Under the pieces are notes generated by a model. That model was not told the origin of the DNA, did no database searches, and worked only from the letters and a program-made list of their open reading frames with translations. From Candidatus Roseilinea sp. (GTDB lineage: Bacteria > Chloroflexota > Anaerolineae > J036 > Brachytrichaceae), in contig BPHV01000002.1 in the NCBI GenBank assembly GCA_026003755.1, positions 248,001-312,000 on the forward strand: a stretch of DNA of 64,000 bases, given 5' to 3'. The position numbers and the translations under genes were made by a program. This document shows positions 26,133 through 29,679 of the stretch, one piece after another. Each line of letters opens with the position of its first letter. The stretch's first letter is position 1.

Positions 26133-27836
26133 TTACATCAGGCCTTCGTCCAACGAGCGGCGGCCGAGTTTCTTGCGGTTGGCCTCGGCGCGCACCTCGG
26201 CCGGCGCCTCGGCCAGCGGATCGGCAAACTGCCGGTAAATTGCCTCACCGTATTCGGTCGTGCGCACCACGACCGGCATGGGCACAGCGTGACCCATGAT
26301 CAACGCCTGCTGCTTGCTCTCCAGCGCTGCCAGCACGCTCCGCAACTGCTGTGCACCGCTCATGCCGGTGAAGACCGCCGCAATGTCGCGTTCGTCGCTC
26401 AGCGCGCAGGTGATGCGTGTGCCGATCTGGCTCATCACCTCGGCGTCAATTTGGCTGGGGCGTTGATCCACGATGAGCAGGGTCACGTTGTATTTGCGCA
26501 GCTCGCGCGCAATCGTGCCGAAGATGGTCAAGTCGGCCACGCCCGGCTGCAGGAACTTGTGCGCCTCTTCCACTGCGATGACGAGCTTCCTGGGCTCTTT
26601 GCCGCACTCGCCCTCCGCCGCTTCCTTCATCTCGACGTAGCGGCGGTGGATGCGCCGGGTGAGGAAGTTGGCGACGAAGACGTAGGCCGGCAGGTCGTTG
26701 CCGTAACGCCCGAATTCCACCACCACGCTCTCGCCGCGCGTGAGATGGTTGAGCACCCGTTCGGCGAAATCTTCGCTCACCTCGCGGCGCAGGAAGTCGA
26801 ACTTCAACAGCCGGCTGAGCTTGCGCTGCATGGCGAAGTAGGTGCCCTCGGCGATCTTGTTGCCGTCGAACAGCTCCTGCACTTTCGGCGGGATATCGTC
26901 GCTGAGCAATTGGTGCACCCAGGCATGCGCGAAGCGGCGCTTGAGCGCGTGCAATGCATTCACCTGCACGTCGCTCAGGCCGAGCACGCCGCGCAGCATC
27001 TCGATGTCTTCCGGCTCAATCTGGTCGTAGCCGATGTGCAAGGCGAACTCCGGCCGCGAGCCGCGCACGCTGGACGACGCCTCGTCCAGCGTAACGATGA
27101 TGACCTTATGGCAGATGGCGTCGAGCCGTTTTAGCCCCTTCAACTGACGTCCGCCGTCGCCTTTGAGCGTGTAGCCATAGTCGTTGTGCATGTCGAAGAT
27201 CAACACGCTGGCCAGGTCGCGCCGGATGATGTTGGCGAGCAACGGCAGGGTGAGGAAGGTCTTCCCCGTGCCGCTGCGGCCGAACACGGCGCTGCTGCGC
27301 TCTACGAAGCGCTCCAGATCCAGCTTGATCTCGATGGTCTCGTCTTCAACCGAGGCGCCGATGCGATACGCGGTGCGCTCGTCGGCGGCGAAGATCTCCT
27401 GCACCTCTTCGGGCGTGGCGCGGCGGACGACGGTGAAATGCGCAGGCACGCTCTTCACCGGCTTTACTTCGCCCCGGCCTTCCTGCACCAACATCGGCTT
27501 GACGTGCAGCGTGCCATAGGCCACCGTGCCGCGGTAGATCTCCAAGCGCGGGTCGTCATCGGCCGGCGGCGATTGCGCCAGGGCAGCATCGGTCATGTCG
27601 AGCCGAATATCGGTGACCAGGCCGAAGAACTTACGATCGGTCTGACCTTTGATGATGACGTAGGAGCCGACGGCCACGCCCTCAACGATCACGTCGCCGT
27701 CCAGTTTGACGAGCACGCCGTCGTTGAGCGACCCACCAATGACTACGCCCAGGCGCGCGGGTAATTCATCGCGCTGTAGCCGCGCCCGATCGCTGGGCGC
27801 GAAGGGGTTGAGTGTCGAGAGCAGATTAGCAGTCAC
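26133..27836 (-). CDS. herA: HerA-type helicase / DNA translocase ATPase
   Basis: Hexameric HerA/FtsK-superfamily ATPase used in DNA end processing. N-terminal HAS-barrel (residues 10-80, RLGVVIGGSLNDGVLVKLDG), then Walker A FGRSGTGKT at about residues 185-193, LIFDMHNDYGY, a helical insert, Walker B LVIAVEEAHKF and LLIVDQRPSQI sensor region. GTG 27836 is chosen because GGAGG lies just upstream. Classical partner NurA is not found; instead a small HAS-barrel-like gene precedes it. Both lie under a LexA-type palindrome, suggesting a DNA-damage role. Confidence 0.85.
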   Translation of the reverse strand: MTANLLSTLNPFAPSDRARLQRDELPARLGVVIGGSLNDGVLVKLDGDVIVEGVAVGSYVIIKGQTDRKFFGLVTDIRLDMTDAALAQSPPADDDPRLEIYRGTVAYGTLHVKPMLVQEGRGEVKPVKSVPAHFTVVRRATPEEVQEIFAADERTAYRIGASVEDETIEIKLDLERFVERSSAVFGRSGTGKTFLTLPLLANIIRRDLASVLIFDMHNDYGYTLKGDGGRQLKGLKRLDAICHKVIIVTLDEASSSVRGSRPEFALHIGYDQIEPEDIEMLRGVLGLSDVQVNALHALKRRFAHAWVHQLLSDDIPPKVQELFDGNKIAEGTYFAMQRKLSRLLKFDFLRREVSEDFAERVLNHLTRGESVVVEFGRYGNDLPAYVFVANFLTRRIHRRYVEMKEAAEGECGKEPRKLVIAVEEAHKFLQPGVADLTIFGTIARELRKYNVTLLIVDQRPSQIDAEVMSQIGTRITCALSDERDIAAVFTGMSGAQQLRSVLAALESKQQALIMGHAVPMPVVVRTTEYGEAIYRQFADPLAEAPAEVRAEANRKKLGRRSLDEGLM

Positions 27837-28461
27837 CGTGCATCCTCCAAAGGATAGCGCCACCTCGCGTTATACCAACCGGCGCAACAATCCATCCAGC
27901 CGTGCGCCGTCGCCGGCCAGCAGCCGGGCCAGCTCGCAGCCACACCGGCGGAGGAAGCCGCGCGGATTCGCGATGCGTCTGGGAGGCGAGCCGCAGGCTG
28001 GCGGCCAACAGCTCGTCGCATGGCGCATCGTGCGCGTCCAGCACCAGGCGGAAGAAATCCAACTGCTGCGTGAATTGCTGCACTTCCTCCGGGGTGCAAC
28101 TGACGACCTCATCGAGCGTGAGCGGCGGCTGTGGTGGAAGGACCTGTCGAATCGCTTGGCCGGCTGCGTCGCCGTCGCGGTAGCCGACGCATAACACGCT
28201 GACCTCGATCGGCACGCGCCGGCTGCGCTGCCACTCGATCTCCTCGGGCTTCACCAGGCCATCTTCGGCGACCGACAGCATGCGCGTCACGCCGTCATCC
28301 TCAACAGCGATATCGTAGATCAGCCCGAACACCGTGGCGTTTTTGTGTTGAATACACGTCTTGACGAACGCGCCGAAGACCGGCACGTCTTCCTTCGGCA
28401 CGCGCGTGCCGAAGACGAAGGAGCGCGTGTTGGCGCGCAGGACTCTGCCGTTGACGTTCAT
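27826..28461 (-). CDS. HAS-barrel-like protein upstream of herA, possibly frameshifted near its end
   Basis: A 211-residue protein as read. Its start, MNVNGRVLRANTRSFVFGTRV, resembles the beta-barrel domain found at the N terminus of HerA. The middle (CTPEEVQQFTQQLDFFRLVLDA) is helical. Beyond about 27985 the reading becomes Pro/Arg-rich and overlaps the herA start. One base fewer in the CCC near 28006 would continue instead as FLRRCGCELARLLAGDGAR and LLRRLV, stopping at 27870, which leaves a normal gap with a ribosome-binding site before herA. I consider that the likely true end. Function unknown; probable HerA partner. Confidence 0.65.
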   Translation of the reverse strand: MNVNGRVLRANTRSFVFGTRVPKEDVPVFGAFVKTCIQHKNATVFGLIYDIAVEDDGVTRMLSVAEDGLVKPEEIEWQRSRRVPIEVSVLCVGYRDGDAAGQAIRQVLPPQPPLTLDEVVSCTPEEVQQFTQQLDFFRLVLDAHDAPCDELLAASLRLASQTHRESARLPPPVWLRAGPAAGRRRRTAGWIVAPVGITRGGAILWRMHGDC

Positions 28462-28467
28462 ATCGGG

Positions 28468-28483
28468 TCGAACAATTGTTCGA
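28468..28483. promoter_or_regulatory. Perfect 16-base palindrome matching the LexA (Cheo-type) SOS box
   Basis: TCGAACAATTGTTCGA contains CGAAC-N4-GTTCG, the consensus LexA box of Bacillus and Actinobacteria. It overlaps the predicted transcription start and adjoins the -10 box of the HAS-barrel/herA transcript. It lies 45 bases before the divergent amine-oxidase gene. No lexA gene is in the window, so identity of the regulator is inferred. Confidence 0.6.
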
Positions 28484-28489
28484 ATTATA
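28484..28489 (-). promoter_or_regulatory. Consensus -10 box TATAAT for the HAS-barrel/herA genes
   Basis: TATAAT on the minus strand, 22 bases before the ATG at 28461 and touching the LexA-type palindrome, so a bound repressor would block RNA polymerase. No clear -35. Confidence 0.5.
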
Positions 28490-28527
28490 GCCGAGCGCGG
28501 CGCACCGGCCGGAGCGAAAATACGGGC

Positions 28528-29679
28528 ATGACGGAATGCTACGACGTAATCGTGATCGGCGCCGGCGTGATGGGCAGCGCTGCCGCCTATCACCTCGCTA
28601 AAGATGGCCAGCGCACGCTGCTCATCGAGCGCTTCGAGATCGCCCACACCTTTGGCAGCTCACACGGCGAATCGCGCATCTTTCGCTTCGCCTACAACAA
28701 TCCCGACTACGCGCGGTTGGCCATGCAGAGTTACCCGCACTGGCGCGCGCTCGAAGCCGACAGCGGCGAGCCATTGTTGGAAGTCATCGGCGGCCTCGAC
28801 CTCGCGCACGAGCCGGCGCATTACCCCAACGTGGACGCCGTGGCCGACGCGCTGACTCAGGTGGGCGGGCGGTTCGAGCGCCTGGATGCTGCGCAAATCC
28901 GCGCGCGCTACCCGCAGTGGCGCCTGGGCGACGCGGCGATCGCGGTGTTCTCGCCCGACTCCGGCTTCTTGCGCGCCACGCGCTGCGTGCAGGCCATGGT
29001 CGCGCAAGCCGCCAAACACGGCGCAACGGTGCGCGAGCGCGAGGCGGTCAACCGGATCGTCCCCGGGCGGCCGGTCGAAGTCGTCACCGACGCCGGCCGT
29101 TATCGCGCCGACAAGTTGATCATCACGGGCGGCGCCTGGATCAACGAATTGATCCGATACGTCGGCCTGCAGTTGCCGGTGCGCATCGAGCAAGAGCAGG
29201 TGACGTATTTCGCGCCGCTGCGCGACGCCGAGCGCTTTCAGCGTGGCCGCTTCCCGATCTTCATCCACTGGCGCAGCCCGATCCCTGCTTACGGCTTCCC
29301 GATGATTGATAAGCCGGGGATCAAAGTCGGCTTTCACCACGAGGGATATTTGATTGACCCCAACGGGCCGCGCGTGCCGCGCGATGAAACTACCCGGCGG
29401 GTGCTCGACTACGTCCGCGCGCATCTGCCCGATGCGGCCGGCGCGCCGTTCGAGCCGACGGCCTGCCTCTACACCACGACGCCCGACGAGGACTTTGTGA
29501 TTGACTTTGCGCCGGACTTTGACAACATCGTGATCTGCTCGGCGTGCAGCGGCCATGGCTTCAAGTTCGGCGCCGGCATCGGCCGCGCGCTGGCCGACTT
29601 GGTGGAACACGGCGCCACCGAGATGAACATCGGCCATGTGCGGCTGCGCCCATTCGCTATGGGATCCCCCGCTCAATGA
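28528..29679 (+). CDS. Monomeric sarcosine oxidase / N-methyltryptophan oxidase family protein
   Basis: FAD-dependent amine oxidase of 383 residues. N-terminal dinucleotide fold GAGVMGSAAAYHLA, then SSHGESRIFRFAY (flavin-contacting loop), DSGFLRATRC, and the C-terminal ACLYTTTPDEDFVID with the cysteine that covalently binds FAD in MSOX, followed by CSGHGFKF. Catalyses oxidative demethylation of N-methyl amino acids in characterised members. Its 3' end overlaps the convergent DinB gene by 23 bases. Neighbours do not fix the substrate. Confidence 0.88.
   Translation: MTECYDVIVIGAGVMGSAAAYHLAKDGQRTLLIERFEIAHTFGSSHGESRIFRFAYNNPDYARLAMQSYPHWRALEADSGEPLLEVIGGLDLAHEPAHYPNVDAVADALTQVGGRFERLDAAQIRARYPQWRLGDAAIAVFSPDSGFLRATRCVQAMVAQAAKHGATVREREAVNRIVPGRPVEVVTDAGRYRADKLIITGGAWINELIRYVGLQLPVRIEQEQVTYFAPLRDAERFQRGRFPIFIHWRSPIPAYGFPMIDKPGIKVGFHHEGYLIDPNGPRVPRDETTRRVLDYVRAHLPDAAGAPFEPTACLYTTTPDEDFVIDFAPDFDNIVICSACSGHGFKFGAGIGRALADLVEHGATEMNIGHVRLRPFAMGSPAQ

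Follow-up and report, generated by a model that had tools for sequence, protein, structure and literature searches.

The Gram-positive-type SOS box, known from Bacillus and the Actinobacteria, has the consensus GAAC-N4-GTTC and has also been reported for Dehalococcoides, a member of the Chloroflexota. The HerA ATPase is known from the NurA–HerA complex of archaea and Deinococcus–Thermus, and from defence systems of the SIR2–HerA and HerA–DUF4297 kind. The herA operon of thermophilic archaea has been described as inducible by UV (PMC5448004). The cellular role of bacterial NurA–HerA has been described as controversial (PMC9960219).

The locus analysed here is part of the window, i.e., a 64,000-nt stretch of a Candidatus Roseilinea genome of 3.34 Mb in 5 contigs, and over 8.6 kb the region shares 95.9% identity with that of Candidatus Roseilinea sp. 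NK_OTU-006 (Chloroflexota). It consists of a small gene, termed has, and the herA gene, with a palindrome before the start of has. The locus resembles a Gram-positive-type LexA regulon in the GAAC-N4-GTTC motif, in the presence of lexA and recA among the putative targets and in the position of the operator at the core promoter, but differs in its predicted target, which is a has–herA or nurA–has–herA operon. Similar to the NurA–HerA complex of archaea and Deinococcus–Thermus, HerA has HAS-barrel and DUF87 domains, NurA is present, and nurA precedes herA in most relatives. Different from that complex are an extra small HAS-barrel-like gene between nurA and herA, the displacement of nurA in this genus, and the predicted LexA control. 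For a herA–nurA operon induced by damage, the UV-induced archaeal operon is a precedent, although the archaeal case is without a LexA box.

The reading favoured here, which is considered probable, is that LexA represses a has–herA transcript, which contributes two of the three components of a NurA–HerA machine for end resection. The type of box itself is known. In a literature search that covered few subscription journals, no paper reporting that LexA controls herA or nurA was found, nor one that describes a small HAS protein as regularly accompanying NurA–HerA, and a search on LexA in Chloroflexota returned nothing of use.

The small gene has and its partners

The has gene is on the minus strand at 27870..28461 and encodes a protein of ~196 aa in relatives, with a HAS-barrel-like N-terminal part and a C-terminal helical domain. 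Relative to three related sequences (L082, L083 and L085), the window copy contains an additional A at 27967/27968, and its frame is shifted there. The open reading frame as written thus runs to 27826, the gene end given in the initial annotation, and has an unrelated tail; the frame of the three relatives ends at 27870 in window coordinates, and the true stop is likely to be there. The extra A is either an assembly error or a real mutation. In one congener, the small gene and herA are ~860 nt apart (L086:4589-5448).

Relatives of the small protein have N-terminal glycines and prolines that do not vary, and the C-terminal sequence GRELARLL...RLDGLLRRL is conserved among them. No Pfam, NCBIfam, PADLOC or PHROGs family is matched at threshold. 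The HAS-barrel model PF09378 gives sub-threshold matches in 6 of 25 relatives, with a best E of 0.0033, and none with the window copy. An AlphaFold2 model of moderate confidence, built from 17 sequences, displays strands followed by helices (pLDDT 75, pTM 0.73, residues 1-19 poor). When this model was used in a Foldseek search, the first 33 rows were HerA chains, the best being 7wrx with E 2.1e-3 and none reaching E<=0.001. VIA-align comparisons with HerA N-termini gave Z values of 6-8.3, the highest of these with an rmsd of 3.2 over 99 residues. A profile comparison of the small protein with HerA by hhalign was not significant (E 0.043, probability 1%), and a PDB sequence search with the small-protein alignment gave no matches. 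The HAS-barrel identity first proposed for the small protein is thus suggested by the predicted fold, but the family match stays below threshold; the designation HAS-barrel-like is well motivated but not proven.

Downstream of has, herA (26133..27836, minus strand) encodes a HerA-type hexameric ATPase/translocase with HAS-barrel and DUF87 domains (PF01935, 1.7e-26; PF09378, 2.1e-8) and the Walker A motif GRSGTGKT. A ribosome-binding site, GGAGG, is at 27844..27848 on the same strand, 7 nt before the GTG start codon of herA. The PADLOC HerA models also match (best E 5.3e-34), and the structure matches include defence HerA complexes, whose HAS-barrels are among the fold matches of the small protein. 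Even so, a role in a damage-induced anti-phage defence system of the HerA–SIR2 or HerA–DUF4297 kind is improbable. The NCBIfam HerA equivalogs NF040937, NF040819, NF042943 and NF042944 score 67-84 bits against cut-offs of 800-970, so that the anti-phage HerA cut-offs are far off (84 vs 800 bits). Judged by their translations, the genes next to has–herA in the window encode an oxidase, in divergent orientation, and an ABC transporter; neither a SIR2 or DUF4297 gene nor another effector partner was recognised beside the pair. In addition, the small gene is scattered across the phylum and tied to NurA, as expected for a housekeeping repair module.

The initial annotation described the pair as lacking NurA, with the small HAS-barrel protein taking the place of NurA as the partner of HerA. 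The nurA gene is indeed not adjacent to has–herA in this genus; it is away from the pair in the window genome and in the congeners with a close small-gene ortholog. However, a gene whose product of ~395 aa matches the NurA domain (PF09376, E 1.6e-17) is found at G000:C2:144791-145618, ~103 kb from the window start, and nurA is present in all eight congeneric genomes. In most other genera nurA is adjacent to herA with the small gene between them, in the order nurA–has–herA. Among 400 Chloroflexota genomes, the small gene was found in 150, NurA in 236 and both in 149 (hypergeometric P ~1e-45, phylogeny not corrected), and in 48 of the 80 genomes for which both places are listed, nurA is followed immediately by the small gene in the same orientation. 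With nurA elsewhere in the genome, and NurA in 149 of the 150 genomes that have the small gene, replacement is contradicted and very improbable. The predicted fold, barrel-like with helices and with best matches to HerA rather than NurA, also speaks against it. By gene order and co-occurrence, the small protein is a companion of NurA. This unnamed protein would be a concrete component to purify together with HerA and NurA.

The palindrome at the has promoter

A perfect 16-bp palindrome, TCGAACAATTGTTCGA, is at 28468..28483 and carries the motif CGAAC-N4-GTTCG. Directly adjoining it is a -10 hexamer, TATAAT, which reads on the minus strand from 28489 to 28484; the minus strand of the small-gene promoter is GGCTATAATTCGAACAATTGTTCGACCCGATATGAACGTC. 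The 14-mer box is 7 nt from the has ATG at 28461. These details agree with those first given for the site. A -35 consensus to pair with the has TATAAT was not found. The has leader would be ~16 nt long and the start of transcription would fall within the palindrome; thus a protein bound there would be expected to block initiation.

Important is the similarity between this box and those of the SOS genes proper. The single lexA of the window genome has two boxes upstream of its start, AGAACGCTTGTTCG and AGAACAAAAGTTCG, and recA has one, AGAACAGTTGTTCG; all share their consensus with the has–herA site, so the possibility that lexA and recA carry a different box does not apply. With the window genome counted, 28 of 30 lexA loci have an exact GAAC-N4-GTTC no more than 250 nt from the match to the LexA domain. 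Upstream of recA it is present in 15 of 30 loci, and it precedes every recA examined from the family of the window genome for which there is enough upstream sequence. In several other families of the class, the sole near-match before recA is a one-mismatch variant ending in GTGCT (L142, L146, L151 and L154; for example AGAACAAATGTGCT), perhaps a drifted operator.

The box is also conserved upstream of orthologous pairs. Eight congeneric genomes were compared, seven of which (G001-G007) have a close ortholog of the small gene, and in all seven a TATAAT and HGAAC-N4-GTTCG box are found 20-22 nt before the small-gene ATG (L014-L020). Two of these loci, L019 and L020, have a different sequence further upstream but the box is still present, and in L020 (genome G004) the neighbouring gene seems to differ as well. 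The eighth genome, G008, has a divergent small-gene copy at a contig end, with no box in the few bases available. Outside the genus, the box is found on nurA where nurA heads the operon. In two genera of the family that have the nurA–has–herA operon, the core of the box begins 24 nt upstream of the nurA start codon and overlaps a TACAAT or TAGAAT (L091-L094). In another genus, represented by G017, AGAACAGACGTTCG closely precedes the small gene, and in two other families TATAAT and then TGAACACGTGTTCG or TGAACAGACGTTCG precede nurA (L207, L208). In 30 loci taken with up to 1.5 kb of upstream sequence each, every exact box was in the promoter of the first gene. The putative operator therefore overlaps or abuts the core promoter and is kept in orthologs. 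No box was found at the operon in several genera of the window's family, nor upstream of nurA in a phylum-wide sample of 18 regions; thus SOS control would be a trait of some lineages only.

The palindrome is within the 66-nt gap between has and the divergent oxidase gene, which starts at 28528, and could in principle serve the oxidase gene. This assignment was rejected and has very little to recommend it, as the box abuts the -10 hexamer of has, is kept in G004 despite the changed upstream sequence and neighbour, and is found on nurA promoters. A chance match, also rejected, is scarcely credible: perfect 16-bp palindromes by themselves are not unusual in the window (7 found vs ~3 expected by Markov simulation), but an exact CGAAC-N4-GTTCG is unusual (1 found, in a promoter, vs 0.05-0.07 expected per 64 kb), and the same position is kept in seven orthologs, two of which have a changed flank. 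The LexA/SOS-box identity originally suggested is thus strongly supported; on sequence grounds the palindrome is very likely a LexA operator, and LexA control of has–herA is likewise very likely. The predicted operator, by its presence on the operon in several Chloroflexota lineages, would tie NurA–HerA to the DNA-damage response.

Proposed control of has–herA

The box, its identity with the lexA and recA boxes, the conservation at the core promoter, the gene order and the co-occurrence with NurA come from sequence comparison. From these we infer LexA binding, damage induction and a role in end resection. The putative operator overlies the beginning of the promoter of has–herA. As long as the DNA is undamaged, LexA would be bound downstream of the -10 hexamer, ahead of the start codon, and block RNA polymerase. 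Upon DNA damage, self-cleavage of LexA, stimulated by RecA, would free the promoter, and the has and herA products would be made, i.e., two thirds of a NurA–HAS–HerA machine. In this machine HerA would act as the DNA-translocating hexamer and NurA as the nuclease, and its likely job would be the resection of broken DNA ends for recombination.

The small protein is apparently built like the NurA-binding HAS-barrel of HerA. In D. radiodurans HerA makes contact with NurA through its HAS-barrel (PMC9960219), which suggests that the small protein may have an adaptor role. Its most likely function is that of an adaptor or a regulator where HerA and NurA meet, although as a claim of its own the adaptor role is tentative, with the odds somewhat against it.

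Upstream of nurA in the window genome no box was found, even with one mismatch allowed; thus the whole machine would not be induced together. In the congener G006, nurA has its own TATAAT and box, TATAATTGAACAAATGTTCG (L074:1100-1111; TGAACAAATGTTCG), and the corresponding sequence in the alignment is degenerate in the window genome (G000), G002 and G003, which may represent either a loss of the box in these three genomes or a gain in G006. A more speculative proposal, doubtful as it stands, is that the free-standing HAS-barrel protein belongs to NurA–HerA in the Chloroflexota as a regular third subunit and forms a ring or cap with the HAS-barrels of HerA that gates the access of NurA. SOS induction of has–herA without nurA in Roseilinea-like bacteria would then change the ratio of motor and adaptor to nuclease. 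If so, DNA damage in these bacteria would shift the amounts of motor and adaptor relative to that of the nuclease.

Other box sites in the genome

There are 29 MGAAC-N4-GTTCK sites genome-wide. Most of these seem to be within coding frames, and such sites were not counted as regulon members. Two LexA-type boxes, AGAACGCATGTTCT and AGAACATTAGTTCT, are found at L099:2224-2267 (G000:C3:83223-83266), flanked on one side by a gene for a membrane dipeptidase and on the other by a gene whose product has an FtsK/SpoIIIE ATPase domain (PF01580, 5.8e-25). The latter is possibly a second DNA translocase under SOS control. Another site, AGAACAGAAGTTCG at G000:C1:1305281 (L046), is 16 nt upstream of the gene for cytochrome c oxidase subunit III. 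This is an unexpected place for an SOS box, and the box there is perhaps due to chance.
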